Shown in pieces: positions 22,826 to 57,335 of a DNA stretch of 64,000 bases. The translations under genes and the position numbers were made by a program. The notes under the pieces were generated by a model. That model was not told the DNA's origin. It saw only the letters and a program-made list of their open reading frames with translations, and searched no databases. Position 1 is the first letter of the stretch. The number at the start of each line of letters is the position of its first letter. The DNA is from Psychroflexus tropicus DSM 15496 (GTDB lineage: Bacteria; Bacteroidota; Bacteroidia; Flavobacteriales; Flavobacteriaceae): contig NZ_KB905342.1 of NCBI RefSeq assembly GCF_000378765.1, forward strand, positions 1 through 64,000. The letters are read 5' to 3'.

Positions 22826-22872
22826 CAAAAGTAGCGATTAGATGAAGCTTGATTTGTAGAATAAATTCGAAA
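22826..22872 (-). promoter_or_regulatory. conserved upstream element plus -7 box, T9SS gene 1
   Basis: On the minus strand TTTCGAATTTATTCTACA (22872-22855) is followed after exactly 21 bp by TACTTTTG (22833-22826), a perfect TAnnTTTG. The TTG start codon is 18 bases beyond. The element contains two TTC half-sites 10 bp apart. The same layout occurs at 26366-26412 and 30911-30957. Confidence 0.75.
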
Positions 22873-22932
22873 TCAGGCAGATATGTAAAATTCTATTCTC
22901 ATTTAACAATAATAAAGTTATTGTGAGGCGCT

Positions 22933-22950
22933 TGTAGAATTAAGTCTACA
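22933..22950. promoter_or_regulatory. palindromic variant of the conserved upstream element
   Basis: TGTAGAATTAAGTCTACA is half identical to the 18-bp element but forms an inverted repeat (TGTAGA/TCTACA). It lies between the small CTERM gene's terminator and T9SS gene 1, with no TAnnTTTG box 21 bp away. It may be a second binding site or a chance resemblance. Confidence 0.35.
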
Positions 22951-22956
22951 AAAAAC

Positions 22957-22982
22957 AAAACCACTTGTTATCAAGTGGTTTT
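22957..22982 (-). terminator. terminator after small CTERM gene A
   Basis: AAAACCACTTG (22957-22967) and CAAGTGGTTTT (22972-22982) form an 11-bp stem with a 4-base loop. On the minus strand the hairpin is followed by a T-rich run (22951-22960). It closes the T9SS protein 2/small protein A unit. Confidence 0.85.
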
Positions 22983-22994
22983 ATTAGGTAGTTT

Positions 22995-23192
22995 TTATTT
23001 ATTTTTCACTTTCCTAATCCCAAGGTAGCCTCCAACTGCCAAGCCTATGGCGATTAGACCGTTGATAGGGGCTACCGGCTCATCTCCCACATCATCATCA
23101 AAACCAGGTAACTGTGCCGATGCTTCAGTAGATAGTAATAACATGATGAGTAATAATCCTAATAGTATATAGTGTGACTTTTGAAGTTTCAT
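22995..23192 (-). CDS. tiny secreted protein with CTERM-type anchor (copy A)
   Basis: The 65 residues consist almost entirely of sorting signals: a signal peptide (to about ...STEASA), an acidic linker QLPGFDDDVGDEP, then VAPINGLIAIGLAVGGYLGI as a motif plus membrane helix, and a basic end RKVKNK. The three-part tail resembles the PID-CTERM class of short Bacteroidota proteins; I name that class from memory. It starts two bases after the stop of T9SS protein 2, so translation is likely coupled. Cleavage at the PIN motif would free a peptide of only about 15 acidic residues. Confidence 0.75.
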   Translation of the reverse strand: MKLQKSHYILLGLLLIMLLLSTEASAQLPGFDDDVGDEPVAPINGLIAIGLAVGGYLGIRKVKNK

Positions 23193-23593
23193 ACCTATTG
23201 TTTTATAAGTTTGAAGGTTCTTTCACCTTGATTGGTTTTCAATTTGACTAAATAAATGCCTGTATTCGCCTTAAAGTCGGTTACCTCTATCGTAGATTGT
23301 CCGCTTAAGCTTTGTTTATACACCTGCTGACCCAGCATGTTATAAATCTCCAGCTCTGCACCTTGCTCTAAGTCTCTGCCTGTTATGCTAAAGCTACCCT
23401 GTGTAGGATTAGGGTAAAGACTCAAAGTAGACAGACTCTCTTCTACTGTGGATAAGCTCTCAGGTTCAAATACCAGACTAAAGCGATCTGTAGCTACAGA
23501 TTCTGGAATAGAATTGTCTATGCTAAAAGCATAGGTGTTTTCTGAACTTGTCATCTCAGTCAACTCATTTAAATAAGCATCTTTGAGGTAGAC
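23026..23593. repeat. long direct repeat, copy A
   Basis: The segment covers most of the small CTERM gene A, the 2-bp junction and the end of T9SS gene 2. It matches 26541-27108 at a constant offset of 3515 bp. Over about 23170-23593 only around eight differences are seen by eye (roughly 98% identity). Homology ends sharply after the GGTAGACTT point. Confidence 0.85.
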
Positions 23594-26347
23594 TTTATAA
23601 TTACTTAAATTCTCTATGTCGACGAATTCTAGGGTGTAATTGAAATGCTTATAGTTGTTAATAAACAAATCTAAAATTTCTTCTTCTTTAGGATACTGTC
23701 TTAATTCAACCGACAAAAAAGAATTACTTTCTACTCGTGCAAGATTTTCATCATCGTTACCCATTTTGTGAAAATCATCATTAATTTCATTTTCAAAGTC
23801 ATCACCAAAGAAGAGCTTTAACCCATCTACAGAAAATAAATCTGAAGACACTTCGTCTTCTGCATAAAGATTTAACTGAAGATATTCTGTTTCATCTACT
23901 GAAAAAGTTGTAGTCTGAGGGTTGGAAACCACTTTCTGAGACTCTGTAAAGTTTAATGCTGGTGTAGACGAAAGTGTACTAGTTTCTACAAATACAGACT
24001 GCATCGGCTGCAGGTATTGATTAGCAGACGAAGAGCTGTTGTTATTTGACCAGTTACCCGCTACTTTCGAAACTGTTACATACGCCCCTCTTGTGCTTAT
24101 GGTCGGATCCCAAACATAAAAGACTCGTGGTCTCAAATTTGCAGAGGCTGTCAAAACTTGATCCATATCGACTTGAGCATGGTAGGGGTTTCCTACTAAA
24201 TTAAAAGAACCACTATTAGAATTCAGGGGGGTTGAGGTGGTTAAGCTACCAGTAGTAAGCGTCCCAAAAGCAGACAGCTTTGTATCTGTAGGAGGTGCGG
24301 AATTTGACGTTATATCAATTGTCCGGTCTCCACGAATCATCAAGCGATAAGGCCGACCTACCGACAAATTATCGGTAGTATTCATAGCCATGCTCCAGCT
24401 TGCATTTAGGTTATCAAAAGTAAACATGGAAGGATTTCCAGAGGGATTGTAATCAAATCCATTCTGACCATCCTGACCAACAGTTGCATTTGAAGACCCT
24501 GGCTCTACTCCTGTAATGTGGGTTCCATAGTTTAAACGTGGTACATCTAAGTAATTACTCGGATTGTCCTGCCAGTTGGCTCTAATAGAAGTTGATGTAT
24601 TAACAGAAGACGTTACAAACCTAAAGGCTCTGTTGGCAGGAAAACATTGCTCTACAGTTACACCACCACTTATGGAACCAGTTACTTCGCCCACTTGAGC
24701 TGTTTTTCTAACAGGCGTGAATTGACAAGCTAAAGTTAATCTATCATTGGTATCAAAATCTCCGTTAATGACGTCCAATAATGAGGTTAAAGTAATGTCT
24801 GTATTACTAGTTACACCACTAGCATTTTCTATGGTAAGAATATCTAAATTTCCTGAGATAAAGTTGTCTGGTATAGTTTGAGCGCTCGTTCCAGAAAAGT
24901 AAAGGTTAGACCCAGGTGTGCTTCCATTGATTAAAGAATTATTGCCTCTTGTGACATCTCCGGAAATTGCAAATACATTGCCATTGATGACTATTGAGGT
25001 GTCATCTTCCATAGTCAAATCCTTAGCGCCAGCATTGCTCAATAAAACAGGATATCTAGGAGCACCTGAAGGAATCAGGACGTTAAAATTGGCATTGGGT
25101 ATTTCACCATTTAACCAGTTAGAAGTATTATTCCATTCATTTGATACTGCCCCTGTCCATTCAGAATCAACACAGGTCCCAACAAGATTTACGACAGCAC
25201 TTATACCGGGTTCCATACTTGTATTTTCAAATCGGATAGAATGGAAATCACCAATTTCAAATACCAAGTCATCGAAAGTAGCCTGCCCTAGCGCATTAGT
25301 TGTTTGAGTCAAAGTACCTAATAATTCTCCTGGACCCGTTTCAATAAAAGCAGTTATAGCAAAACCTGCCTGCTCAACAGGAGCACCATTGAAATCCTGA
25401 ACTTGCACCACAAAATCCTGAGCCATCTCCCCATTACAATCGGACACTGTTGGCTGGCTTACAACTTCGATTTCTCTAGCTACAGATAAGGATTCTTCAT
25501 TATAAGCAATAAAAGCTGGATCCGAACTTCCACTAAATGTATATTCCAAAGCAACAACTGAACCAACATTTGCAGCCGTAATTCCAAAGCTTGAAACATC
25601 AAGAGCAATAAAACGTATGTCTCTTCGAGTATTTGTAATCCCTGCTGTACTATTTAATCTATAAAAATCAATGATCCAACTTGCTAACCTTGGAGCTGAA
25701 GAGTTATTATCCAATCTAAATGAGACCTCGGTACCTACCATATTCCCAGAAGCATCTACTAACCTGGCAAGATCAAATGAGCCTGAAGGTTGAGCTATTT
25801 GAGATATGAGAATATCTGGAATATTATCTCCGATAGCCGAAGGCTCTATTCCATTGGCACTTAGTCTAAATTCGAAACTATTACTAGAAGGTATGTTAGC
25901 GAATCCAGAACCCAAATTAAGTCCTTTCTCACCGTTGGTTAGAAATTGTGTCAATTCCTGACCGCTTAAGTTTGCTTCAAAAGGTTCGGTTGATGAAGAA
26001 TTTACTCCATTGTCAATGCCGTCAAACAGTTGACCTAATCCAATGTAATAAGCCCCACCACCAGATGTAGGTAAGGAATTAAAAGGTAAGGCTCTAAAAT
26101 TAGCAGGCGTAAATGTTACACCCTCCTGGGTCAACTTTGCATCGTCAACTCCTGTTGAAAAGGTAGTTCCTCCGAATCTAAATCCTAATAAGTTATGAGA
26201 GTTTTCTGGTTCAATTGAATTTATTGAACCTTGGCCAGACACCCAGTATCCTTCATAATCTGTTATGATTTGATCTACTGTCTGTGCTTGAGTGAAACTC
26301 AATGCAAACACAAAAAGTATCGTTAATAGATAAGTAATCTTGTTCAT
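23195..26347 (-). CDS. T9SS-exported surface protein 2 (1050 aa)
   Basis: Signal peptide (MNKITYLLTILFVFALSFTQ). An N-terminal region of about 270 residues has no recognised domain. A beta-sandwich-like section follows (PTVSDCNGEMAQDFVVQVQD, about residues 300-390), probably an invasin/Big-type domain. Then come a W-NTSNW-GEIP beta-helix start near residue 395 and the module shared with the two paralogues (VEQCFPANRAFRF, NQYLQPMQSVF). The last about 75 residues form the T9SS type A sorting domain (LYPNPTQGSFSITG). Its final 200 codons are nearly identical to those of protein 3. It is followed at once by small CTERM gene A. Confidence 0.85.
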   Translation of the reverse strand: MNKITYLLTILFVFALSFTQAQTVDQIITDYEGYWVSGQGSINSIEPENSHNLLGFRFGGTTFSTGVDDAKLTQEGVTFTPANFRALPFNSLPTSGGGAYYIGLGQLFDGIDNGVNSSSTEPFEANLSGQELTQFLTNGEKGLNLGSGFANIPSSNSFEFRLSANGIEPSAIGDNIPDILISQIAQPSGSFDLARLVDASGNMVGTEVSFRLDNNSSAPRLASWIIDFYRLNSTAGITNTRRDIRFIALDVSSFGITAANVGSVVALEYTFSGSSDPAFIAYNEESLSVAREIEVVSQPTVSDCNGEMAQDFVVQVQDFNGAPVEQAGFAITAFIETGPGELLGTLTQTTNALGQATFDDLVFEIGDFHSIRFENTSMEPGISAVVNLVGTCVDSEWTGAVSNEWNNTSNWLNGEIPNANFNVLIPSGAPRYPVLLSNAGAKDLTMEDDTSIVINGNVFAISGDVTRGNNSLINGSTPGSNLYFSGTSAQTIPDNFISGNLDILTIENASGVTSNTDITLTSLLDVINGDFDTNDRLTLACQFTPVRKTAQVGEVTGSISGGVTVEQCFPANRAFRFVTSSVNTSTSIRANWQDNPSNYLDVPRLNYGTHITGVEPGSSNATVGQDGQNGFDYNPSGNPSMFTFDNLNASWSMAMNTTDNLSVGRPYRLMIRGDRTIDITSNSAPPTDTKLSAFGTLTTGSLTTSTPLNSNSGSFNLVGNPYHAQVDMDQVLTASANLRPRVFYVWDPTISTRGAYVTVSKVAGNWSNNNSSSSANQYLQPMQSVFVETSTLSSTPALNFTESQKVVSNPQTTTFSVDETEYLQLNLYAEDEVSSDLFSVDGLKLFFGDDFENEINDDFHKMGNDDENLARVESNSFLSVELRQYPKEEEILDLFINNYKHFNYTLEFVDIENLSNYKVYLKDAYLNELTEMTSSENTYAFSIDNSIPESVATDRFSLVFEPESLSTVEESLSTLSLYPNPTQGSFSITGRDLEQGAELEIYNMLGQQVYKQSLSGQSTIEVTDFKANTGIYLVKLKTNQGERTFKLIKQ

Positions 26348-26365
26348 AATAAGATATTTGTCAAC

Positions 26366-26412
26366 AAAAATAGACTTAGCTCATGATCCTGTTTGTAGAA
26401 TTAGTTCGAAAT
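26366..26412 (-). promoter_or_regulatory. conserved upstream element plus -7 box, T9SS gene 2
   Basis: On the minus strand TTTCGAACTAATTCTACA (26412-26395), then 21 bp, then TATTTTTG (26373-26366). The ATG lies 19 bases beyond. The element is identical to that of T9SS gene 3 and occupies the place of a normal -33 box, as expected for an activator-dependent promoter. Confidence 0.8.
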
Positions 26413-26506
26413 TCAAGTACTAAAAACTTGTCTCTAAATCTGCAAATCAAATTCGAGGTTTATTTTGGATTAATCCAACTAAATAAGAATTTTTACAGAC
26501 CGAGTA

Positions 26507-26707
26507 TTAGCTACCGTTCCTCAGTTTGGTATAACCAAAATAGCCTCCAACTGCCAAGCCCATAGCGATAAGACCGTTGATTGGGGCTACCGGCTCATCT
26601 CCCACATCATCATCAAAGACAGGCAACTGTGCCGATGCTTCAGTAGATACTAATAGTAGGATGAGTAATAATCCTAATAGTATATAGTGTGACTTTTGAA
26701 GTTTCAT
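26507..26707 (-). CDS. tiny secreted protein with CTERM-type anchor (copy B)
   Basis: Paralogue of copy A: 66 residues with the same signal peptide, acidic linker (QLPVFDDDVGDEP) and PINGLIAMGLAVGGYFGY helix. The last residues differ (TKLRNGS instead of RKVKNK). It begins two bases after the stop of T9SS protein 3 (TAG-GT-ATG), again implying coupled translation. The conserved acidic linker in both copies argues that the mature peptide matters. No CTERM-processing enzyme is encoded in this window. Confidence 0.75.
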   Translation of the reverse strand: MKLQKSHYILLGLLLILLLVSTEASAQLPVFDDDVGDEPVAPINGLIAMGLAVGGYFGYTKLRNGS

Positions 26708-27108
26708 ACCTATTGTTTTATAAGTTTGAAGGTTCTTTCACCTTGATTGGTTTTCAATTTGACTAAATAAATGCCTGTATTCGCCTTAAAGTCGGTTACC
26801 TCTATCGTGGATTGTCCGCTTAAGCTTTGTTTATACACCTGCTGACCCAGCATGTTATAAATCTCCAGCTCTGCACCTTGCTCTAAGTCTCTGCCTGTTA
26901 TGCTAAAGCTACCCTGTGTAGGATTAGGATAAAGACTCATAGTAGACAGACTCTCTTCTACTGTGGATAAACTTTCAGGTTCAAAAACCAGACTAAAGCG
27001 ATCTGTAGCTACAGATTCTGGAATAGAATTGTCTATGCTAAAGGCATAGGTGTTTTCTGAACTTGTCATCTCAGTCAACTCATTTAAATAAGCATCTTTG
27101 AGGAAGAC
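26541..27108. repeat. long direct repeat, copy B
   Basis: Second copy of 23026-23593, covering the small CTERM gene B, the junction and the end of T9SS gene 3. The identity of the C-terminal sorting domains of proteins 2 and 3 comes from this duplication or from gene conversion. Confidence 0.85.
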
Positions 27109-30100
27109 TTGAGTATTGAGGTTGTCTGTTAAATCAAATTTCATCACATAAGCCTCTCTTCTGTACTGATTGATGAACAATGCCAACTCTTCTTCAACCT
27201 CCGGGAATGGTCGTCTTTCAATAGCCGAATACACGTTATCTTCAACCCTGGCTAAGTTCTCATCTAGATTTGATAGTTTAGGGGAATCATCTTCAGTAGT
27301 CTTATTGTAAGATTTATCAAACTTAATACGCAAACCATCTGATGGAGTGTTGCCTTCTGCATAAGATTCTGCATCAAATAACTGAATGTTGATATATTCT
27401 GCTTTTGATAAAGATTTTACCTCTGTTTGAGTTTGCTCAACGGCCTTCATTGATTCTTCAAATGTTACAGATGCTGGACCATTTACAGAGGTTAAAACGA
27501 AAGCCGCTTGCATAGGTTGCAAATATTGATTAGCTGATGAGGTGATTGAATTAGTACCTGCAGGTAAATCAACTGTCACGTAAGCTCCTCGCCCTCCTTG
27601 TTGCCCCACTGTTGGAGCGCCTCCTAAAGTTGGATCCCAAACGTAGTATTCAGCAGTTGAAATGTTTGTTGAAGCGGACAGTACTGTATTCATATCGACC
27701 TGAGCCTGATAGGGGTTGGCTACAAAACTAACCTCTCCTCCTACATTTGATAAAACACTCTGTGTTGTATTACCAATCAATAAGGCTCCTGTAGCTCTAA
27801 GTCTTGTATTAGTTGGAATTGCTGAGTTGCTTGTTACATTTATACCTCTATCGCCTCTAATAAATAATCTATATGGAGTTCCAGCTTCTAAAGCCTGATT
27901 GGTCGAAGCTATGGCATCCCATTGTCTCGGCACATTATTACTGAAGGTAAACATGGATGGATTACCGCTACCAGTAGCATCAAAGCCATTGGCCCCTGTA
28001 ATTGAACCAGTAATATGCGTACCAAAACCTGGGTTAGGATTTTGATTATCTGTTGGGAAATTAAGTCCTGTGTTATTAACTCCTTCCTGCCAGTTACTTT
28101 GTATTGTCCCACCAGTCACAGATGAGGAAATAAACCTGAAGGCCCTTCTAGCTGGAAAGCACTGCTCTACAGTCACATTTCCTACTATGGCACCATTCAC
28201 CGGAGCGACTTGTGCAGTTTTAACAGGTGTGAATGAGCAGCGTAGATATAAATTGTTATCTGTATTAAATGTTCCTTGGTCTACATATAACACGCCGTTC
28301 AAATCCATTGGAGTATCCAATGGATTATCTATTGACACAGATGTAGGATTATCTAACCTTAAGTTCTCAAAAGATCCATCCCCTGAAATCATCTGGGCGG
28401 AAGTGCCATCTAAAATGACTTCGCCATCGCCGTTTATTAAGCCATTGTTAATGATGTTACCATTAGCATTAAGACTTGCTCCAGAATTTATAGATATCTC
28501 AAAGCCAGAATCCAGAGTTAAAGCTCTCGTATCGTATTGAAATGGAACCGTAGCGTTAGCTCTTACAATAACGTCATTGGAACTATTAGGTATCGTATTA
28601 GTGTTCCAATTCGAAGTTTCGTTCCAGTTTCCAGTAGTCTCAAATATGAAGCTACAACCTTCATTGATAGAATCATCGATAGCATCAGTGTAATTAAATC
28701 CATTATAACCTGCAGAAATGACTCTACCTTGAGCATCTACTACTGGAACGCCAGCACCAAATACACCATCATCACCCCCATCTGCATTCGCTAAAGCATA
28801 ATATTCATTAGCATCTGAGCATCCATCATCATCTGAGTCTAGATCAAATCGATTCACTAAACCATCACCATCAGTGTCTAAATCACCAGATGGTGAAGCT
28901 AATACTGAAAATGGTATTTGTGTTTTGGTTATAGTAGAACTCTCATAAGAAACCTCAAGTAGATCATCTCCTGTATTTTCAAAATAAAGGATTTCTATGA
29001 AATGTAATCCTTCGGTTAAAGCAATCGAACCAGAAACTTCTGTTGCTGAATGCAATCCGTCATTATCTACCACTTCAACTCCGTCGATAAAAAGTTTTGA
29101 TCCATCGTCAGAATTAGTGAAAAACGTGTAGGTATCGTCTGTGGAAATATCTACAAATCCTGTGAATCTTACAGAGTAAGTGGCCGCGTTACCAGTAATA
29201 GCTATACTGAGCGCTTCAACATCAAAATCTGAAGCCACTCCAGTTTGTGTCGCTCCTGTGTTAGGTATATTATCTACAGTGAACCCACTAGGAACTAAAT
29301 CGTAATACTCATAATTTAGTTCTCCGAAATTGAGATCTGACTCATTACTATCTAAAACTCCATCGTTGTCATCGTCTAAATCAACGAAATTTGGTACTGA
29401 GTCTGCGTCAAAATCATCGCAGGCACGATTAATGGAATTATCAGTAACATCTTCAAAATAAATACCATCATATCCCGCTGCGATTACTAAACCATCAGCA
29501 TCAACAGCTGGTGCTCCTGCACCAAACACACCATCGTCACCACCATCTGCATCAGATAATCCATAATACTCATTAGCATCAGAACATCCATCGTTATCCG
29601 AATCTAAATCCAAATAATCTGGTGTTCCATCTCCATCAGTGTCGAAACTTGTACCACCTGCACTAACTATTAAAAATGGAAGCGGTTGTTTAGAGATAGA
29701 CGGTCCTGCATAAGATACAGACAAATTTTCTCCTCCGGAATTTTCAAAAAACAAAACTTCAATATCATAGTCTCCAGCTGTTAACGTTATATTTCCTTGT
29801 CTTTCTCTATTACTATGTAACCCATCATTATTTACGACTTCAGTACCTTCGATGAATAGCTTAGAACCATCATCAGAACTGGTATAAAACGTATAGGTAC
29901 CAGAGCTTGTAATATTGATTGTTCCAGTATAACGAATTGAAAATGTATTGTTATCGCCAGGTGTGATAGCCTGCCATAAAGCATCTACATCAAAGTCTGA
30001 AACTGTACCTGTTGCTATAGCTCCACTTGTGGGAATATTATCTACAGTATTTCCTGCTGGAGCTGAATTATAAAATTCATAGTTTAAAGAACCGCCGCCT

Positions 30101-30894
30101 TGTTCTAAGAAATTGGTAAGACCATCATTGTCGCTATCTAAATCGACAGAATCCGGAACTCCGTCTTCATCGGTGTCAGTCACCAATGAAAAAGCGAACA
30201 CACCTGCATTCAAAAACGCTGTAGTGGCATAATTAATATTAGCATTTTGAGCTGTTGTTGAATTCACCGTCTTGAAACCAGTTTCCAATGAAATAGCATC
30301 ACCATCTGGATTGGTATTTTGATTCACTGTGTTGCTGAAATTTGTAAATGTAACCGCCTGCCCAATTGGTGTATCGTTTTTAGCCAAAAATAAGCCAAGA
30401 ACAAGACTATTTGGGCTTGATAATCCAGGAGTATTACCAGAATTGATAGTATTGACTTGTGTAGCTCCAGAATTATTTACACTGAATTGGTCTAAAGCTC
30501 CAATTATATTTCCAGAAACAGAAAATTCCTGAAGAGCTAGTGCTGCATCACCACCGGAAGTCCATTCCGCTGAAACTAATGTTGCTTCTGAGGCGCCAGC
30601 TATCTTATAATAATAACCAAAACCTCTTCTGTTAGTGCCTGCAGTGTTAAAATAGTCATCCGTTACTTTCGTCCAGCCAGAACTTAACATGTTTGACTGA
30701 TTTCCTGCATTACCATCTTCAGTGACAGGGATAGCTACTAATAAATTACCTTCTGTTGGTGTAGCTGTAAATGAAACTGAAACTTGAGATCCGGATGAAT
30801 TCACTCCTTCTGTTGACTGTATCAGGGTCGCAGTTTGTGCAAAGGACGATACATAGGATAATATTAAAATGAAAAGAGATGTAATTTTATTCAT
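26710..30894 (-). CDS. T9SS-exported surface protein 3 (1394 aa) with two PA14 domains
   Basis: A signal peptide is followed by a beta-rich N-terminal domain of about 220 residues. Two similar blocks come next, each with acidic calcium-binding TSP3-type repeats (TDTDEDGVPDSVDLDSDNDG and alike) around a PA14-like domain. The PA14 cores show TYTFYTSSDDGSKLFIEG and TYTFFTNSDDGSKLFIDG (about residues 270-405 and 535-665). Then follow W-ETSNW-TIP, the module shared with proteins 1 and 2 (VEQCFPARRAFRF, NQYLQPMQAAF), and the T9SS type A sorting domain. PA14 domains often bind sugars, so a surface glycan-binding role is plausible. The small gene B follows. Confidence 0.87.
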   Translation of the reverse strand: MNKITSLFILILSYVSSFAQTATLIQSTEGVNSSGSQVSVSFTATPTEGNLLVAIPVTEDGNAGNQSNMLSSGWTKVTDDYFNTAGTNRRGFGYYYKIAGASEATLVSAEWTSGGDAALALQEFSVSGNIIGALDQFSVNNSGATQVNTINSGNTPGLSSPNSLVLGLFLAKNDTPIGQAVTFTNFSNTVNQNTNPDGDAISLETGFKTVNSTTAQNANINYATTAFLNAGVFAFSLVTDTDEDGVPDSVDLDSDNDGLTNFLEQGGGSLNYEFYNSAPAGNTVDNIPTSGAIATGTVSDFDVDALWQAITPGDNNTFSIRYTGTINITSSGTYTFYTSSDDGSKLFIEGTEVVNNDGLHSNRERQGNITLTAGDYDIEVLFFENSGGENLSVSYAGPSISKQPLPFLIVSAGGTSFDTDGDGTPDYLDLDSDNDGCSDANEYYGLSDADGGDDGVFGAGAPAVDADGLVIAAGYDGIYFEDVTDNSINRACDDFDADSVPNFVDLDDDNDGVLDSNESDLNFGELNYEYYDLVPSGFTVDNIPNTGATQTGVASDFDVEALSIAITGNAATYSVRFTGFVDISTDDTYTFFTNSDDGSKLFIDGVEVVDNDGLHSATEVSGSIALTEGLHFIEILYFENTGDDLLEVSYESSTITKTQIPFSVLASPSGDLDTDGDGLVNRFDLDSDDDGCSDANEYYALANADGGDDGVFGAGVPVVDAQGRVISAGYNGFNYTDAIDDSINEGCSFIFETTGNWNETSNWNTNTIPNSSNDVIVRANATVPFQYDTRALTLDSGFEISINSGASLNANGNIINNGLINGDGEVILDGTSAQMISGDGSFENLRLDNPTSVSIDNPLDTPMDLNGVLYVDQGTFNTDNNLYLRCSFTPVKTAQVAPVNGAIVGNVTVEQCFPARRAFRFISSSVTGGTIQSNWQEGVNNTGLNFPTDNQNPNPGFGTHITGSITGANGFDATGSGNPSMFTFSNNVPRQWDAIASTNQALEAGTPYRLFIRGDRGINVTSNSAIPTNTRLRATGALLIGNTTQSVLSNVGGEVSFVANPYQAQVDMNTVLSASTNISTAEYYVWDPTLGGAPTVGQQGGRGAYVTVDLPAGTNSITSSANQYLQPMQAAFVLTSVNGPASVTFEESMKAVEQTQTEVKSLSKAEYINIQLFDAESYAEGNTPSDGLRIKFDKSYNKTTEDDSPKLSNLDENLARVEDNVYSAIERRPFPEVEEELALFINQYRREAYVMKFDLTDNLNTQVFLKDAYLNELTEMTSSENTYAFSIDNSIPESVATDRFSLVFEPESLSTVEESLSTMSLYPNPTQGSFSITGRDLEQGAELEIYNMLGQQVYKQSLSGQSTIEVTDFKANTGIYLVKLKTNQGERTFKLIKQ

Positions 30895-30910
30895 AGTAAT
30901 AAATTTTATG

Positions 30911-30957
30911 CAAAATTATTACTATATCTACGTAAACTCTGTAGAATTAGTTCGAAA
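30911..30957 (-). promoter_or_regulatory. conserved upstream element plus -7 box, T9SS gene 3
   Basis: On the minus strand TTTCGAACTAATTCTACA (30957-30940), then 21 bp, then TAATTTTG (30918-30911). The ATG is 17 bases beyond. The element and the 21-bp gap match the other two T9SS genes exactly, while the surrounding sequence does not, so the match reflects selection rather than recent copying. Confidence 0.8.
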
Positions 30958-34919: not shown

Positions 34920-35468
34920 CTAATAATCTGTAACAGATCCCCAGTTTTCACCGCTCTTGATCCTATAAAGTTGCATTTCAGAAATACCAAATTGCTTGGC
35001 AATCATCTTCATACGGGTCTTTCGGTTAGGATCATGAATTTTACGCTTAATAATCTTAACCTGAGCCTCTGTTAATTTTGAATAGGTTCGTTTTCTTGGT
35101 CTATTGATATACTCGGGATTGGTAAATTGATGCTTCTCTTTTTCTTTTTTTGTAGCCCATTTAAGGTTCTCTACCTTATTGTTACGTTTGTCATAGTCCA
35201 AGTGAATCACATACACTCCATCTCCTTGTTCTAGAAAGTGCTGAGCAACTAGTTTGTGTACGTATCGGCTTGTAGATTTTTTGTTAACTTCTTGCTTCAA
35301 TGGTAAAGTTTGATAACCATTGATGAAAGATTCCTTCACCAGAACCTCTTTCTCGCCTTTGCAGTTTAAGATTCTGCCATAATTAGAAACTTTGTATTTT
35401 TCGAATTCAGCAATTCGATCGTCAAATACAATTTCCTTCCATTGTTCATTGTAAAAATTACGAATCAT
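34920..35468 (-). CDS. NUMOD4/HNH-type endonuclease-like protein
   Basis: The 182 residues start with a NUMOD4-like motif (EQWKEI...YKVSNYGRIL), followed by an HNH-like part (VIHLDYDKRNNKVENLKWAT) in which the usual N-H-x-D of homing nucleases reads I-H-L-D. The C-terminus holds a helix-turn-helix of the type AEAQ-KIIKRKI...IAKQFGISEMQLYRIKSG, normally used for DNA binding. It is free-standing, with no intron or intein host gene nearby. Such genes may be mobile or domesticated; nuclease activity is uncertain given the altered first residue. Confidence 0.78.
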   Translation of the reverse strand: MIRNFYNEQWKEIVFDDRIAEFEKYKVSNYGRILNCKGEKEVLVKESFINGYQTLPLKQEVNKKSTSRYVHKLVAQHFLEQGDGVYVIHLDYDKRNNKVENLKWATKKEKEKHQFTNPEYINRPRKRTYSKLTEAQVKIIKRKIHDPNRKTRMKMIAKQFGISEMQLYRIKSGENWGSVTDY

Positions 35469-50730: not shown

Positions 50731-51255
50731 ATGAAAACACCTAAAACCTTATTTAAAAATTGTTGTGAACAAGCTGTATTTTCAAATCTACATCAAAAAT
50801 ATGCTAAAGATTTACATGATTTTATTTATTACAAATTTGGCAGCGCTTATAATCCAAAGGATAAAGTTCAGGAGGCCTTTATGAAGCTATGGGAAAATTG
50901 TGAAAAAATAGCTCCCGATAAAGCAAAAAGCTATTTGTTTTCTGTGGCCAACAATACAACCCTCAATGTAATCAAACACAATAAAGTGGTGTTGAAATAT
51001 GAGACAAACTCTAGACCTAGCTCATCAGATCATCAAGACCCCCAATTTATCTTAGAAGAAAAAGAGTACCTAAACAAATACCAAAAGGCCCTATCAAAAC
51101 TAACGGAAGAAAAAAGAGTAACCTTTTTAATGAACCGTGCTGAAGGCAAAACTCACAAAGAAATCGCAGAATTGCTAGGAATCTCCAGGAAAGCTGTAGA
51201 AAAACGGATATACACGGCCTTGGAGCAATTAAGAAAAGAAATTCAAGAGATATGA
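50731..51255 (+). CDS. ECF-type RNA polymerase sigma factor
   Basis: The 174-residue sigma factor has region 2 (KYAKDLHDFIYYKFG...KDKVQEAFMKLWENC, then KAKSYLFSVANN) and region 4 with the helix-turn-helix EGKTHKEIAELLGISRKAVEKRIYTAL. It directs polymerase to a small regulon that probably includes the genes downstream. The FecR-like anti-sigma gene starts 55 bases after its end. The order sigma-FecR-TonB receptor is a classical cell-surface signalling set. The ATG at 50731 is preceded by an A/T-rich leader. Confidence 0.92.
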   Translation: MKTPKTLFKNCCEQAVFSNLHQKYAKDLHDFIYYKFGSAYNPKDKVQEAFMKLWENCEKIAPDKAKSYLFSVANNTTLNVIKHNKVVLKYETNSRPSSSDHQDPQFILEEKEYLNKYQKALSKLTEEKRVTFLMNRAEGKTHKEIAELLGISRKAVEKRIYTALEQLRKEIQEI

Positions 51256-51310
51256 TAATTTTAAAGTAGGAATTTAAAGGGCTAAATTGTCTTATAACTG
51301 AAGAATAGGT

Positions 51311-52219
51311 ATGAAAGAGGAAAAAGTTATCAAAAAATGGCTCAAAAACGAGCTATCTAAAGAGGAGCTTGAGGCGTTCAAAGAATTAGACGCCTACCCT
51401 ACTTACATTAAACTTTCAGAGCAAGCCAGACACTTTAAGGCTCCACAATTTGATGAGCAGTCTTCCATAAAAAGTTTGAAATCTCAAATCGAATTTAAAC
51501 AACAAGGGGCTTCCAAAAGAAAGAAAATGTACTATTATTATGCTGGTATTGCTGCCATTCTTGTTTTAGGTTTCTTTATTTTTAACACTATTGAATCTGT
51601 CTCAGGTTTGACTTCTTTTGAAACCAAGATAGCAGATACAGAACATATCATTTTACCAGATCAGTCTGAAGTAGATTTAAACGCTAGTTCAACACTCAAT
51701 TATGTAAGCAATCAATGGGACACCAAAAGAACACTTGAGCTTGACGGCGAAGCCTACTTCGAAGTGACATCTGGCAGTAAATTTACTGTCAATACAACTT
51801 ATGGGACTGTTGAGGTGCTTGGTACAAAATTTAATGTAAAGTCCAGAACATATGGATTCGAAGTGACTTGTTATGAAGGTTCTGTTGCTGTTGCTCTTAA
51901 CGATAAGGAATTTGTCTTAAAGCAAAACGATCAATTGCTTTACGATTCCTCTTCCATCCAAAAAAAGAAAATTGAAAAAAAATCTCCAGATTGGAAAAAC
52001 AAGTACACTACTTTAAAAAGCAGAACACTGGAGCAGGTGCTTGAAGAATTCAGCTACTATTACGATGTCGATTTTGATGTAAAAGGCATTAATACTTCGA
52101 GACTTTACACAGGAAGTTTCCCTCATAACAATTTAGAAATTGCTTTAAAATCCATTACTTTGCCACTAGAGTTGACCTATCAGATGAATGATAAAACGGT
52201 CATTTTAAGCAATAAGTGA
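51311..52219 (+). CDS. FecR-family anti-sigma regulator
   Basis: The 302-residue protein has an N-terminal cytoplasmic part that would hold the sigma factor, one membrane helix (YYAGIAAILVLGFFIFNTI, about residues 78-96), and a periplasmic FecR domain (ETKIADTEHIILPDQSEVDL...ELDGEAYFEVT). The C-terminal DUF4974-like domain (LEQVLEEFSYYYDVDFDV) contacts the receptor. It transmits the signal from the TonB receptor to the sigma factor. The TonB receptor gene starts inside its stop codon region (GTGA). Confidence 0.9.
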   Translation: MKEEKVIKKWLKNELSKEELEAFKELDAYPTYIKLSEQARHFKAPQFDEQSSIKSLKSQIEFKQQGASKRKKMYYYYAGIAAILVLGFFIFNTIESVSGLTSFETKIADTEHIILPDQSEVDLNASSTLNYVSNQWDTKRTLELDGEAYFEVTSGSKFTVNTTYGTVEVLGTKFNVKSRTYGFEVTCYEGSVAVALNDKEFVLKQNDQLLYDSSSIQKKKIEKKSPDWKNKYTTLKSRTLEQVLEEFSYYYDVDFDVKGINTSRLYTGSFPHNNLEIALKSITLPLELTYQMNDKTVILSNK

Positions 52220-54732
52220 AGATTTTAAAATTATATTTAGTTGTAGTATTAGGATTTAGCTGCTCAACCCCGCTAAATGCTCAAATTAATCCTCATTCTG
52301 AAGATTTAGCTAGCTATTTAGAATTTTTAGAGGAAGAATTCGATATCACTTTTTCATACGCAGATGAAGAAATTGAAAATTTAAAAATAAGTAGATCTAA
52401 GGATTTGATAGATCTAAAGCAGCATCTTCATTTTTTAAAAAACAAGACGCCCTTTAGGTACATAAGACAAAACCAAACGAGAATTTTAATTGTTCCCTTA
52501 CCTTCAAAAAAGACCATATGTATATCTGTTACAAACGAACTTACTGGTGAAAGAATAAACAATTCATTTTTAAGGCTGGATGCCATTATTTTCAAATCCG
52601 ATTTAAATGGAGAGTATAGAATTCCAGTGGTTAAGCAAGAGCTTCACGTGGTTATCAGTGCAAAAGGTTTTGCAGAAAAAGCTCTAAAAATTCGTGCTGA
52701 TAATGATATAGATTGCTATAGTTTCAAACTCACCCCCTTTTTTGAAATGTTGGATGAGGTTTTTTTAACCAATCTATTAACCAGCGGAATACAAAAGTTC
52801 GCCTCGGGAGGGTTAGAAATTAATTACAAAGACTTTGGACTTTTACCCGGATTGGTAGAGCCAGACGTTTTACAGAGTCTTCAGGCTTTACCTGGCATTA
52901 CAAGCAGAAAAGAAAGTGTTTCCTATTTAAATGTAAGAGGCGGTACCCACGATCAAAATTTATTTCTTTGGGATGGAATTAAAATGTATCATACTTCACA
53001 TTATTTTGGTATGATCTCCGCCTTCAACCCCTACATGACCCAAAAGGTCACCTTAATAAAAAACGGAACCTCCTCCAAATTTGGAGATGGAGTCTCTAGT
53101 TTAATCAACATGAAAACAAGCGACTCTATTGCTAGTCACGTTGAAGCAGAAGCAGGGCTCAATCTTATAAATGCCGATGCTATTTTAAGGACACCGCTAA
53201 ACAGTGATTCCTCCATGGAAGTTTCTTTTCGGAGGTCAATAAACTCAATTTGGGAAAGCCCAACTTACGACCGCTATTTTGACAAAGTTTTTCAAAACAC
53301 AGCAGTGACTGATTTTGAATCCTCAACATCTCAACAAAATGATGATTTTTCATTTTATGATGCTACCCTTAATTATAAGCATAAACTCTCTGGAAAAGAT
53401 TACCTAAAAGCCAACTTATTTTACGCTAAAGACCGCTTTTCATTGAATAGATTTGAAATTGAAGGTAATCAAATCAATACAAGATCTAGTGATTTGGAAC
53501 AGTCCAACCTAGCAGGGGGATTATATTATGAACGAAACTGGTCGTCCCAAACCCAAACTCAAGTTCAATTTTATACTTCAAAATACAACCAGTCCTCGGT
53601 CAATACTAATTTTTTGGATGCACAAAGCCTGGAACAGATCAATGAAGTAAGAGAAACAGGGTTTAAAATAAATGTACAAACTCAACTTTTTTCTAATTTA
53701 GTTTTAGAAAGTGGTTATCAATTCAATGAAACCGGTGTTTTAAATTCTGAAGAAATTGATAATCCTGGATTCTTTAGGGAACTTCGAAATTCAATCTTAA
53801 CCAACAGTATTTATTCACAATTTAATTATCAATCTAAGAGTAGTCGTCTTAATCTCAGTCTTGGCGGAAGGTTAAACCATTATTCCAAATTCAATAAAGT
53901 TTTAGTAGAGCCTAGACTTAATTTAAGTTATCAATTGATTGATGATTTATTCTTGGAAGTCCTGGCGGAGCGAAAAAGCCAGGTGACTTCTCAAGTCATA
54001 GATTTACAAACGGATTTTTTGGGAGTTGAAAATCGGAGATGGATAGTATCCAATCCAGACAATAGTCCAATTATAGAAAGTTGGCAATGGTCTTCTGGTC
54101 TCAATTACATCAAACCCAACTGGTTTATCAATCTCGATTTATACAATAAAAAAGTAGAGGGCATTACATCTCAAGGGCAGGGATTTCAAAATCAGTTTAG
54201 GTTTGTAAGGACGCATGGAAGTTATGATATAAAAGGCATAGATTTTTTGATCAATAAAAGTTTTAAGTCTTTTTCTGGTTGGATAAGCTACAGTCTTTCA
54301 GAAAATAATTATCAGTTTGACGAATTACAACCCTCTCAGTTCCATAACAATCAAGATATAAGACATGTAATTTCGACAGGCTTAAGTTTTGAGAAAAAAG
54401 GATTCAAATTATCCACTGGCTTCAATTGGCATTCTGGAGCGCCTACAACCCTTTTAGCAGAAGAACAACCTCTAGTTTCTCAGCAAATCAATTATCAAGA
54501 ACCAAATGCAGCCAGACTCCCAGACTATTTTAGACTAGATTTTTCGTCTACCTATACTTTTCCTATAGGAAAAAAATTAAAAGCCCTGGCAGGTCTATCC
54601 TTCTGGAATCTTCTCGGGAATTCAAATGTTTTCAATCAGTTCTATCAGCTAGATCAAAATCAAGACATCCAGACTATAACACAAGAAGGATTAAATTTTA
54701 CCCCAAATTTTCTTTTCAGACTCGAGTTTTAA
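52216..54732 (+). CDS. TonB-dependent outer-membrane receptor with STN signalling domain
   Basis: The start is GTG at 52216, overlapping the fecR stop. A signal peptide (VVLGFSCSTPLNAQ) is followed by an STN domain (ITFSYADEEIENLKISRSKD), a carboxypeptidase-regulatory-like segment, the plug domain (VEPDVLQSLQALPGITSR...YLNVRGGTHDQNLFLWDG) and a long beta-barrel to residue 838, ending in LEF. The STN domain marks it as the sensor of the sigma/FecR set. The ligand is unknown; no SusD partner is next to it, so glycan uptake of the SusCD type is not indicated. Confidence 0.9.
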   Translation: MKILKLYLVVVLGFSCSTPLNAQINPHSEDLASYLEFLEEEFDITFSYADEEIENLKISRSKDLIDLKQHLHFLKNKTPFRYIRQNQTRILIVPLPSKKTICISVTNELTGERINNSFLRLDAIIFKSDLNGEYRIPVVKQELHVVISAKGFAEKALKIRADNDIDCYSFKLTPFFEMLDEVFLTNLLTSGIQKFASGGLEINYKDFGLLPGLVEPDVLQSLQALPGITSRKESVSYLNVRGGTHDQNLFLWDGIKMYHTSHYFGMISAFNPYMTQKVTLIKNGTSSKFGDGVSSLINMKTSDSIASHVEAEAGLNLINADAILRTPLNSDSSMEVSFRRSINSIWESPTYDRYFDKVFQNTAVTDFESSTSQQNDDFSFYDATLNYKHKLSGKDYLKANLFYAKDRFSLNRFEIEGNQINTRSSDLEQSNLAGGLYYERNWSSQTQTQVQFYTSKYNQSSVNTNFLDAQSLEQINEVRETGFKINVQTQLFSNLVLESGYQFNETGVLNSEEIDNPGFFRELRNSILTNSIYSQFNYQSKSSRLNLSLGGRLNHYSKFNKVLVEPRLNLSYQLIDDLFLEVLAERKSQVTSQVIDLQTDFLGVENRRWIVSNPDNSPIIESWQWSSGLNYIKPNWFINLDLYNKKVEGITSQGQGFQNQFRFVRTHGSYDIKGIDFLINKSFKSFSGWISYSLSENNYQFDELQPSQFHNNQDIRHVISTGLSFEKKGFKLSTGFNWHSGAPTTLLAEEQPLVSQQINYQEPNAARLPDYFRLDFSSTYTFPIGKKLKALAGLSFWNLLGNSNVFNQFYQLDQNQDIQTITQEGLNFTPNFLFRLEF

Positions 54733-54827
54733 GAATAATCACCTACCTAATTTATTCTCTTTATATTTAACTTTTTTTAAAAAAAAGAGTCTAATTTCAA
54801 AAATCTGACCCTTTAAAATCAAATTAT

Positions 54828-57335
54828 ATGAGACAAGTAATTGTAGTTTTTATTCTAAGCTTATTTAGTTTTTCAAATGCTCAAAATCTTAGTTTAGAAG
54901 ATTATTTACCAACCGATGTAACTTACAATCAAAACATACCTAAACCCAGCGAAGTCTTAGGTTATGTTCCAGGCGAATGGCATGTTAGTCATGATAAATT
55001 AGTCCAATACATGACGGCTCTCGATCTGGCTTCAGATAGAATCAAGATGGAAAATAGAGGCTTTACTTATGAAAAAAGGCCTTTAATTCTTCTCACAGTG
55101 ACCTCCCCAGAAAATCATGAAAACCTTGCAAATATTAAGGAAAATCATCTAAACATCGTAAGCGGAAAAGTAAACAAATCAGAGCTTAGCACTATGCCTG
55201 TTGTGGTAAATCAAGGCTTTTCAGTTCATGGTAACGAGCCTAGTGGAGCAAATGCTGCATTGGTTTTAGCCTATTATCTAGCTGCTGCAGAAGGTCCTGC
55301 GATCGATAACTTACTTAAAAATACTATTATACTCCTGGATCCAAGTTTTAATCCTGATGGCCTACAGCGTTTTGCGTATTGGACCAATACAAACAGAAGC
55401 ACGAATCTCAACCCTGATCCTCAGGATAGAGAATTTTCTGAAATCTGGCCCGGAGGCAGAACTAACCATTATTGGTTTGACCTTAATAGAGACTGGCTAC
55501 CTGTTCAACTCTTAGAAAGCCAGGCTCGCATCGAGACGTTTTATGATTGGAGACCTAATGTTCTTACAGACCATCATGAAATGGGCTCAAATTCCTCATT
55601 CTTTTTCCAGCCAGGTATACCCGAACGTACAAACCCGTTGACGCCACAACTCAACCAAGATCTAACCGAAAAAATTGGAACTTATCATGCAGAAGCTCTA
55701 GATAGCATTGGTTCACTTTATTATTCTCAGGAAAGCTTTGATGATTTTTATTACGGAAAAGGTTCAACTTTCCCAGACATCAATGGATCTATCGGAATTC
55801 TATTTGAGCAAGCAAGCTCAAGAGGTTCTGGACAGATGACAGACAATGGGCTGTTAACCTTTGCATTTACGATCAAAAATCAATTTACCACAGCTCTGTC
55901 TACCTTGAAAGCCTCTTTGGAGATGAAAGAAGAAATTCTAAATCTTCAATATCAATTCTATAGAAATGCAGAAAAAAATGCAGATAAAGGAGCTTATGTG
56001 TTTGGAAGAAAGGGAGATCCTGTACTTGCTAATGAACTTGCAAAAGTTTTAAAGCAGCATCAGGTTGAACTTTACAGACTAAATCAGGATGAACGCGTTG
56101 ATGGTAAGGAGTTTGACAAAAACTCTTCTTACATCATACCTAAAAATCAATTACAGCACAGGCTCGTTGAAGCCATGTTTGAAGAGAGAACTACATTCAA
56201 GGACAGTATCTTCTACGATGTGTCTGCCTGGAGTTTTAAACATGCATTTGACGTTGACTTTGCAGAAGTTAAATCTATAAAAAGAGGAGATAAGGTTAAT
56301 CAGCCTGAACTTTCTTCTGAAGAAAATCTTGAAAAGTCTAACTATGCTTATGCGCTAAGATGGAGTGATTTTTATTCTCCTAAGGTATTACATGAAATCA
56401 TGGAGGCAGGTATAAGAGTAAAGGTCGCTGAAAAACCTTTCCAGTCTGCTACTGAAGAATTTGATTATGGAACAATTATGATTCCTGTTCAGAATCAAAA
56501 CAAATCTGGTGATGAGATCTATGAATTACTCAATACATTACAGAAAGACAATCACGTGAAGATTTCTTCGTTAGCAACAGGATTGACTCAAGGCATCAAT
56601 TTGGGAAGCCCGAACATGAGCCATTTGGAACTGCCAAAAATAGCGATGCTCGTTGGTGAAGGCGTTCGGTCTTATGATGCTGGAGAGATCTGGCATATGC
56701 TGGATTACAGATTTGAAATTCCTGTAACCAAGCTGGATACCAAGGATTTCAATCGAGTGAGCTTAGAGAAATATACGCATCTTGTCATTCCAAGTTCGAG
56801 CAGTAATGCGATAAATTCATCTGGAAAAAGTAAGTTGAAAGACTGGGTTAGAAAAGGTGGTAATATTATTGCTTATAAAGGCACTGCTAACTGGCTAAAA
56901 GCAGAGAAAATGATCGATTTTGAAACCGTTAAGGATACTGTTGTCGCAGAGGATGTAAGTTTTGGTGAGCGAAGTGCTTTTTATGGAGCCAAGCGAATTG
57001 GAGGAACCATTTTCAATACAAAAGTAGATCTTTCTCACCCCCTATTATACGGTTATAATGATACTGAATTAGCTGTTTTTAGAAACTCTAATATGATGAT
57101 GAAAGCGGATGAGTTAAGCTTCAACAATCCAATCCAATACACCCAATCTCCATTATTAAGTGGATATATCAATGAGGATAACCTGAAGCTGATCAAAGGA
57201 ACAGTTCCTTTTAAACACAACGGCTACGGAAGAGGTAATGTTATGATCTTTACAGACAATACTAACTTTAGAGCCTTTTGGTTAGGGACATTCAAATTAT
57301 TTTTGAATTCAGTCTTTTTTAGTGACCAAATGTAA
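54828..57335 (+). CDS. large secreted M14-family zinc carboxypeptidase
   Basis: The 835-residue protein has a signal peptide (FILSLFSFSNAQ). The M14 zinc site is present: His134/Glu137 in FSVHGNEPSG and a His in LTDHHEMG near residue 248, with the catalytic Glu in GILFEQASSRG. Length far exceeds a single M14 domain; the C-terminal half (about residues 480-835) has a glutamine-amidotransferase-like fold hint (IAMLVGEGVRSYDAGEIWHM). It lies 95 bases after the receptor gene and may belong to the same regulon, digesting peptides at the surface. Confidence 0.88.
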   Translation: MRQVIVVFILSLFSFSNAQNLSLEDYLPTDVTYNQNIPKPSEVLGYVPGEWHVSHDKLVQYMTALDLASDRIKMENRGFTYEKRPLILLTVTSPENHENLANIKENHLNIVSGKVNKSELSTMPVVVNQGFSVHGNEPSGANAALVLAYYLAAAEGPAIDNLLKNTIILLDPSFNPDGLQRFAYWTNTNRSTNLNPDPQDREFSEIWPGGRTNHYWFDLNRDWLPVQLLESQARIETFYDWRPNVLTDHHEMGSNSSFFFQPGIPERTNPLTPQLNQDLTEKIGTYHAEALDSIGSLYYSQESFDDFYYGKGSTFPDINGSIGILFEQASSRGSGQMTDNGLLTFAFTIKNQFTTALSTLKASLEMKEEILNLQYQFYRNAEKNADKGAYVFGRKGDPVLANELAKVLKQHQVELYRLNQDERVDGKEFDKNSSYIIPKNQLQHRLVEAMFEERTTFKDSIFYDVSAWSFKHAFDVDFAEVKSIKRGDKVNQPELSSEENLEKSNYAYALRWSDFYSPKVLHEIMEAGIRVKVAEKPFQSATEEFDYGTIMIPVQNQNKSGDEIYELLNTLQKDNHVKISSLATGLTQGINLGSPNMSHLELPKIAMLVGEGVRSYDAGEIWHMLDYRFEIPVTKLDTKDFNRVSLEKYTHLVIPSSSSNAINSSGKSKLKDWVRKGGNIIAYKGTANWLKAEKMIDFETVKDTVVAEDVSFGERSAFYGAKRIGGTIFNTKVDLSHPLLYGYNDTELAVFRNSNMMMKADELSFNNPIQYTQSPLLSGYINEDNLKLIKGTVPFKHNGYGRGNVMIFTDNTNFRAFWLGTFKLFLNSVFFSDQM

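Follow-up and report, generated by a model that had tools for sequence, protein, structure and literature searches.

We analysed the first 64,000 nucleotides of contig NZ_KB905342.1 of Psychroflexus tropicus DSM 15496 (hereafter the window), in which three genes for surface proteins of the type IX secretion system (T9SS) are each preceded by the same 18-bp element. The element stands exactly 21 bp upstream of a TAnnTTTG box, recurs with this spacing at three further places in the genome and is conserved in six Psychroflexus species. We regard it as probably the operator of one dimeric activator, which would work by class II activation on the housekeeping promoter of a small surface regulon. 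In this genome, the candidate regulon is compact and exactly defined, comprising five T9SS-type genes and ompA. To our knowledge, only a small number of transcription activators in Bacteroidota have been characterised together with their sites, and it is largely open how individual sets of T9SS cargo are switched on.

An 18-bp element at a fixed distance from the promoter box

All three window loci share one layout on the minus strand, in which TTTCRAAYTWATTCTACA is followed by 21 nucleotides of spacer, the box TANNTTTG, a gap of 16-17 nt and the start codon (Table 1). The distance from box to start codon is thus nearly fixed (17, 17 and 16 nt). A preliminary description of the window had reported the 21-bp spacing, and we found it at all three loci; its coordinates were right for the outer two, whereas the middle element and box had been placed 1 bp too high. 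Within the window, the 18-mer pattern gave 7 matches with up to three mismatches, three of them exact, versus 0.62 expected from 100 shuffles.

The genome (G000; 3.0 Mb in 16 contigs) was then searched, with the reversed pattern as control. The 18-mer alone matched exactly 5 times, with one mismatch once, with two mismatches 3 times and with three 30 times; as this total of 39 barely exceeds the 37 of the control, only the best six stand out. These six sites, with 0-1 mismatch and found without requiring a box, all have one exactly 21 bp downstream. Since TAnnTTTG occurs at 93 per 128,000 positions of the window (7.3 per 10,000), chance placement of all six boxes is ruled out. A combined search for element and box at 21 bp (up to three mismatches overall), as proposed in the preliminary description, returned those same six sites, three of them beyond the window, and 0 control matches. 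No exact box at 21 bp was found among the contexts of 24 of the 33 weaker matches.

Conservation is confined largely to the two motifs. Mean pairwise identity among the six sites is 0.92 for the element and 0.88 for the box, versus 0.33 for the 21-bp spacer, 0.30 for the 40-bp upstream flank and 0.45 for the 28 bp downstream of the box. The flanks had been called otherwise different, which agrees with the roughly 30% identity of flanks and spacers against 92% in the element. Over 26 sites from six species, information per column amounts to 0.7-2.3 bits in the element, 0.3-1.9 in the box, 0-0.7 in the spacer and 0-1.2 downstream; the 40 columns upstream of the element hold 0-0.8 bit, the two nearest having 0.6 and 0.8. 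One pair of own sites (by eye, 26394 and C12:459) has a spacer identity of 0.81 and represents recent copying.

An exact scan of one genome per species (84,980 species, a collection that may omit records of the window's own genome), with the spacing left free between 6 and 36 bp, yielded 13 matches, of which 12 were spaced by 21 bp and 1 by 20 bp. Thus, the many matches at random spacings that the preliminary description had named as speaking against its claim did not appear. Ten of the matches lie in Psychroflexus and three in Flavobacterium.

Table 1 Elements, boxes, genes and further features of the three window loci.
Feature	Position	Strand	Remark
-7 type box TACTTTTG	22826..22833	-	21 bp from element
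18-bp element TTTCGAATTTATTCTACA	22855..22872	-	upstream of 678-aa T9SS gene; exact match
T9SS type A surface protein, 678 aa	20772..22808	-	TTG start
Near-perfect palindrome TGTAGACTTAATTCTACA	22933..22950	-	candidate second site; begins 78 bp upstream of element 22855-22872
Terminator-like hairpin ACCACTTG-TTAT-CAAGTGGT	22960..22979	-	T run on minus strand; read directly from sequence
PID-CTERM-like small protein, 65 aa	22995..23192	-	2 bp 3' of 1050-aa gene
T9SS type A surface protein, 1050 aa	23195..26347	-	
-7 type box TATTTTTG	26365..26372	-	21 bp from element
18-bp element TTTCGAACTAATTCTACA	26394..26411	-	upstream of 1050-aa T9SS gene; exact match
PID-CTERM-like small protein, 66 aa	26507..26707	-	2 bp 3' of 1394-aa gene; NF046080 score under cut-off
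T9SS type A surface protein, 1394 aa	26710..30894	-	PA14 domain
-7 type box TAATTTTG	30911..30918	-	21 bp from element
18-bp element TTTCGAACTAATTCTACA	30940..30957	-	upstream of 1394-aa T9SS gene; exact match

Candidate target genes and their conservation in Psychroflexus

Of the three sites beyond the window, two stand before genes for T9SS-type surface proteins and one before a gene of the OmpA family. The site at C1:973848 belongs to a 953-aa glycine-rich T9SS gene that is followed by a gene for a PID-CTERM-like protein. The gene at C12:459 groups with the T9SS genes by BLAST; it is truncated by the end of a 4.5-kb contig, which puts its tail out of view, and the fragment gave no Pfam match. 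This contig (G000:C12, L030) carries another T9SS tail, a PID-CTERM-like gene and the element-driven gene, and is probably a repeat-split piece of a further tandem array. The site at C1:150823 lies before ompA, whose 434-aa product combines OmpA and beta-barrel domains. The gene adjoins sugar transferase-like and acetyltransferase-like genes, as judged by eye. Its start codon is 13 or 19 nt after the box, compared with 16-17 nt at the other own sites.

The small proteins encoded behind several of the T9SS genes are named PID-CTERM-like because their layout (an N-terminal hydrophobic stretch, PING, a second hydrophobic stretch and a basic end) fits by eye, although the four such genes of the genome score 18.6-20.5 bits (E 0.002-0.009) with the PID-CTERM model NF046080, below its curated cut-off of 26 bits. 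A literature search on PID-CTERM found no paper. The promoter of the partner gene is visible for three of the four, and all three have the element. No PID-CTERM-like gene was found after the 678-aa gene. Of the 44 type A tails found in this genome, 4 are in genes for which the element was seen; a further gene with the element is truncated where its contig ends. The activator-dependent T9SS regulon put forward in the preliminary description stands in part: a conserved element at fixed spacing precedes T9SS genes in six species, which suggests such a regulon, but its scope is not restricted to T9SS genes, as ompA is also a target, and it takes in a small subset of them.

The other five species are P. 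gondwanensis ACAM 44 (G301), P. lacisalsi KACC 14089 (G304), P. longus CAK8W (G305), P. montanilacus CCL10W (G307) and P. sediminis DSM 19803 (G311). Among 27 Psychroflexus genomes searched, we counted six sites each in G000 and G301, five in G307, four in G304, three in G305 and two in G311; the other 21 genomes have at most one match each (up to three mismatches), with six having one, that of G174 being ompA. Five of 32 sites listed were dropped as chance matches with 3-4 mismatches and an imperfect box (L096:295, L097:16009, L098:2787, L100:114 and L104:12823). The 26 sites of the information analysis become 27 in the dyad and TTG counts below through the four-mismatch ompA site of G311. 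Of the 27, which were selected for a box with at most one mismatch, 22 have an exact box and 5 a box with one mismatch. Among the matches listed for the five relatives are at least 15 exact 18-mers, all with a box at 21 bp (up to one mismatch). Fifteen of the 27 sites lie before T9SS genes, of which 14 were seen together with a PID-CTERM-like gene and one is cut; six lie before the 678-aa gene or one of its five orthologs, and the remaining six before ompA.

Conversely, the group has 18 PID-CTERM-like genes, and 14 of the 17 with a visible partner promoter region have the element. The three operons without it (G304 C34:145183, G305 C7:33711 and G311 C27:117019) show a best fit of 6-8 mismatches near the assumed start, which is uncertain in G305, and no whole-genome match; by sequence, they resemble members that have diverged. 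Of the 27 Psychroflexus genomes, 23 have PID-CTERM-like genes, 17 of these outside the six. In 19 stretches from such outside genomes we saw no equivalent element by eye; the upstream regions in L139, L147 and L148 contain half-site look-alikes that are not placed 21 bp before a box. In another Psychroflexus (G308 C16, L138; also L139), the PID-CTERM-like genes number 17 and several of them are arrayed in tandem; two partner genes in L138 share a different upstream sequence, TTGTCTATATGATATCTATATCTAATTTTT.

All six group species carry the element before ompA (0-4 mismatches), with the box at the same distance. OmpA of the five relatives is 79-84% identical to that of G000, versus at most 57% in other members with a match, save one fragment at 69%; judging by these pairwise identities, we consider the six species the nearest group by OmpA. 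Of 22 ompA loci in all, 16 lie outside the group; two of these have no frame and L249 is incomplete. Among the 13 readable ones, AATTTTACA is kept 21 bp before TATATTTG in two (G174 and G300), the distal half being degenerate, and in the other 11 no element was seen by eye.

The ompA sites also bear on whether the element has any regulatory role. The T9SS genes are paralogs and partly tandem, two window operons have become homogenised at their 3' ends (96% identity over 576 bp) and some spacers are recent copies, as might be expected if the element were a duplication remnant or crossover site of tandem T9SS/PID-CTERM cassettes. However, identity has dropped to background in most spacers and flanks but not in the element, and ompA, which is no cassette gene, has the element at the same distance in six species. 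We hence consider this explanation very improbable.

The group may have taken over an activator site that occurs in weaker form at ompA outside it (2 of 13 readable upstream regions), with a stronger version then spreading to almost all of its T9SS/PID-CTERM operons; this history is tentative, and we hold it with somewhat less than even confidence. If true, this sorting module of Bacteroidota would have a dedicated regulatory code, much as PEP-CTERM genes have the PrsR motif (see below). The regulon may also exceed its counted size. The proximal half-site WATTCTACA-N21-TANNTTTG (up to two mismatches) occurs 369 times in the six genomes versus 293 times for the reversed control (67 versus 57 in G000), and the 27 known sites do not fill this excess of 76. 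Further weak members with only the proximal half-site may thus exist.

Outside the genus, matches are at background level, as 35 of 299 genomes in a family sample have a match (up to three mismatches) versus 40 with a control match, and none besides G000 has more than two. In 299 Flavobacterium genomes, the corresponding numbers are 53 and 39. The three exact Flavobacterium matches precede genes that look like those of small outer-membrane proteins, and the one scanned encodes a DUF6646 protein; L309 and L293 contain two more genes of like appearance, with 0 and 2 mismatches. In these DUF6646 promoters, the surroundings of the site are conserved too. Of the three Flavobacterium genomes with an exact match, the two within reach of the 21-bp pattern have one exact site each and otherwise at most two three-mismatch matches. 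At DUF6646 loci of other genera, the 18 read in the right direction (of 30) fit with 5-8 mismatches. The Flavobacterium site could reflect the same regulator acting on one gene, or may be a chance ancestral sequence that was inherited. In F. aquatile (L287), a perfect intergenic palindrome, TGTAGAATTAATTCTACA, lies 22 bp upstream of a three-mismatch site and is a symmetric form of the element; we report it as an anecdote only.

Proposed class II activation and its alternatives

Class II activators of the CRP or LuxR type sit near -41.5/-42.5. The element is centred some 30 bp before the -7 box. In Flavobacterium psychrophilum, the TAnnTTTG box is mapped at -12 to -5 (PMC9723704); with the box so placed here, the element would span about -51 to -34, with its centre near -42.5. 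A dimeric activator would bind the imperfect dyad TNTNGAAYTAATTCNANA, whose promoter-proximal half ATTCTACA is the more constant one, and from near -42 would contact RNA polymerase carrying the housekeeping sigma factor. We propose that the spacing is fixed at 21 bp because the dimer would touch the polymerase from that position. The putative co-activated set would take in the T9SS/PID-CTERM operons, a single T9SS gene lacking PID-CTERM and a gene of the OmpA family. The element would resemble known class II sites in its predicted position over the -35 region, its leaning to dyad symmetry and its fixed promoter phase; it differs in that the box is of the Bacteroidota type.

Of 9 possible dyad pairs, the three forms of the element that were tested by shuffling have 6, 7 and 6 (p = 0.02, 0.006 and 0.04). 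The leader is predicted at 12-13 nt, compared with a median of 24 in F. psychrophilum. From box to start codon we measured 13-20 nt in 16 element promoters, promoters without an exact box or ATG start being excluded; across 66 other upstream regions with a box, the median is 25. The preliminary description had also stated that the element replaces the normal -33 TTG, which the counts suggest faintly: TTG occurs 17-23 bp before the box at 0 of 27 element sites versus 1 of 12 window-gene boxes (two of the 12 being element promoters), and at 0 of 16 element promoters versus 11 of 66 other upstream boxes. The missing TTG is consistent with activator dependence without proving it.

Several points weigh against class II activation. 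The dyad is imperfect, with 4-7 of 9 pairs over all forms and only 5 in the frequent form TTTCGAACTTATTCTACA. The 18-mer alone (up to two mismatches) is present in all 27 Psychroflexus genomes and, in those beyond the group, is about as frequent as the reversed control. Some promoters have been duplicated recently, as seen from own spacers with identities up to 0.81 and from AGAAATTGAG, which is common to several sites in other species, so that 27 sites do not amount to 27 independent events. No regulator was found among the neighbours listed in 17 stretches, most of which were judged by their first 50 residues. The sequence, the fixed spacing, the gene set and the conservation across six species are observed; protein binding, activation and start points are what we infer from them.

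Alternatively, the element could belong to the promoter proper and be recognised by an alternative sigma factor or a specialised RNA polymerase, with no separate activator. Its fixed spacing to the box and its overlap with the -33 position would fit, and genes for extracytoplasmic function (ECF) sigma factors exist in the genome (window 50731-51255) and, at L097:2085-2618, in the same stretch as two G301 element genes. Yet the box is the housekeeping TAnnTTTG, and neither the CGT of the F. psychrophilum motif SM6 nor the -24/-12 pattern of SM4 is conserved here, with spacer columns of at most 0.7 bit. We therefore think this unlikely. Eighteen conserved base pairs are also long for a -35 element. 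Two specific promoter types were rejected, namely a sigma-54 promoter, including one paired with an upstream motif as at PEP-CTERM genes, for which the spacer has no conserved -24 GG or -12 GC column (at most 0.7 bit), and an ECF promoter of the SM6 type, as the box is TAnnTTTG without CGT in the -10 region.

Slightly less likely still is a repressor operator that overlaps the -33 region and is relieved under some condition. Dyad leaning and position over the polymerase site would suit a repressor equally well, but repression does not call for spacing that is exact to a single base pair, and TTG at -33 is absent from all 27 sites, even if just 11 of the 66 other upstream regions with a box have one.

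The preliminary description had suggested a LytTR-like regulator on account of two TTC triplets 10 bp apart within the element. LytTR-regulated promoters are alike in having an activator site just upstream of the promoter. However, the sites compiled for the operons of LytTR regulatory systems (LRS) consist of a pair of 9-bp direct repeats that are separated by 11-13 bp and lie upstream of -35 (PMC6193735). The Psychroflexus element is a single 18-bp block that overlaps -33 and leans to inverted symmetry, forming one imperfect dyad rather than spaced direct repeats. We rejected a LytTR site on this layout, and a regulator of this type is the least probable of the explanations considered.

Published parallels and neighbouring genes

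The F. psychrophilum motifs SM1-3 have the TAnnTTTG box in common with the sites described here, whereas the features of SM4-6 (sigma-54 with -24/-12 in SM4, TAnnTTGY, and CGT in the -10 region of the ECF-type SM6) are unlike them; the accessible part of that study (PMC9723704) describes no 18-bp upstream element of this kind. Likewise, titles and abstract openings of the literature on TAnnTTTG with a regulon or activator, and on T9SS regulation, mention no such element. The nearest published parallel, in spirit, is found at the PEP-CTERM genes of Proteobacteria, with PrsR/PrsK. A subset of these genes shares an upstream 17-nt motif whose distribution pointed to one dedicated regulator and led to PrsR (PMC1569441). 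In both cases, an upstream motif of similar length (17 versus 18 nt) marks a subset of sorted surface-protein genes, and the motif ends in TTTACA there and in TTCTACA in Psychroflexus. The systems differ in spacing, since a mean of 62.8 nt separates the PEP-CTERM motif from a downstream motif of sigma-54 type (PMC1569441) while the Psychroflexus element is 21 bp from TAnnTTTG, and in that sorting there involves PEP-CTERM and exosortase, whereas the targets here are T9SS/PID-CTERM-like genes and ompA.

The element itself can be used to fish for the regulator. Among neighbours scanned with Pfam, the only regulator-like genes were the ECF sigma genes (window 50731-51255 and L097) and an AAA protein (L031:7488-8990), none of which is compelling. 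The AAA-domain gene adjoins the C1:973848 locus and has a weak sigma-54-activator match beside AAA_5. Its relatives in L097, L100 and L105 likewise stand beside a C1:973848-type T9SS locus, making four species with this arrangement.

The palindrome upstream of the 678-aa gene is a possible second site; among five orthologous upstream regions, it has one weak counterpart (L104, 4 mismatches). The adjacent hairpin sits between the gene for the 65-aa PID-CTERM-like protein and the promoter of the 678-aa gene.

The two neighbouring T9SS/PID-CTERM operons of the window are nearly identical at their 3' ends, with 576 bp at 96% identity between 23020-23595 and 26535-27110. The last 80 residues of the T9SS proteins are 98.8% identical, while their N-terminal parts differ, as if by gene conversion or cassette exchange. 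Elsewhere in the window, genes for an ECF sigma factor, a FecR-type anti-sigma factor, a TonB-plug protein and an M14 carboxypeptidase-like protein follow in a row (50731-57335), and a NUMOD4/HNH endonuclease-like gene (34920-35468) is kept near the T9SS locus in related species.

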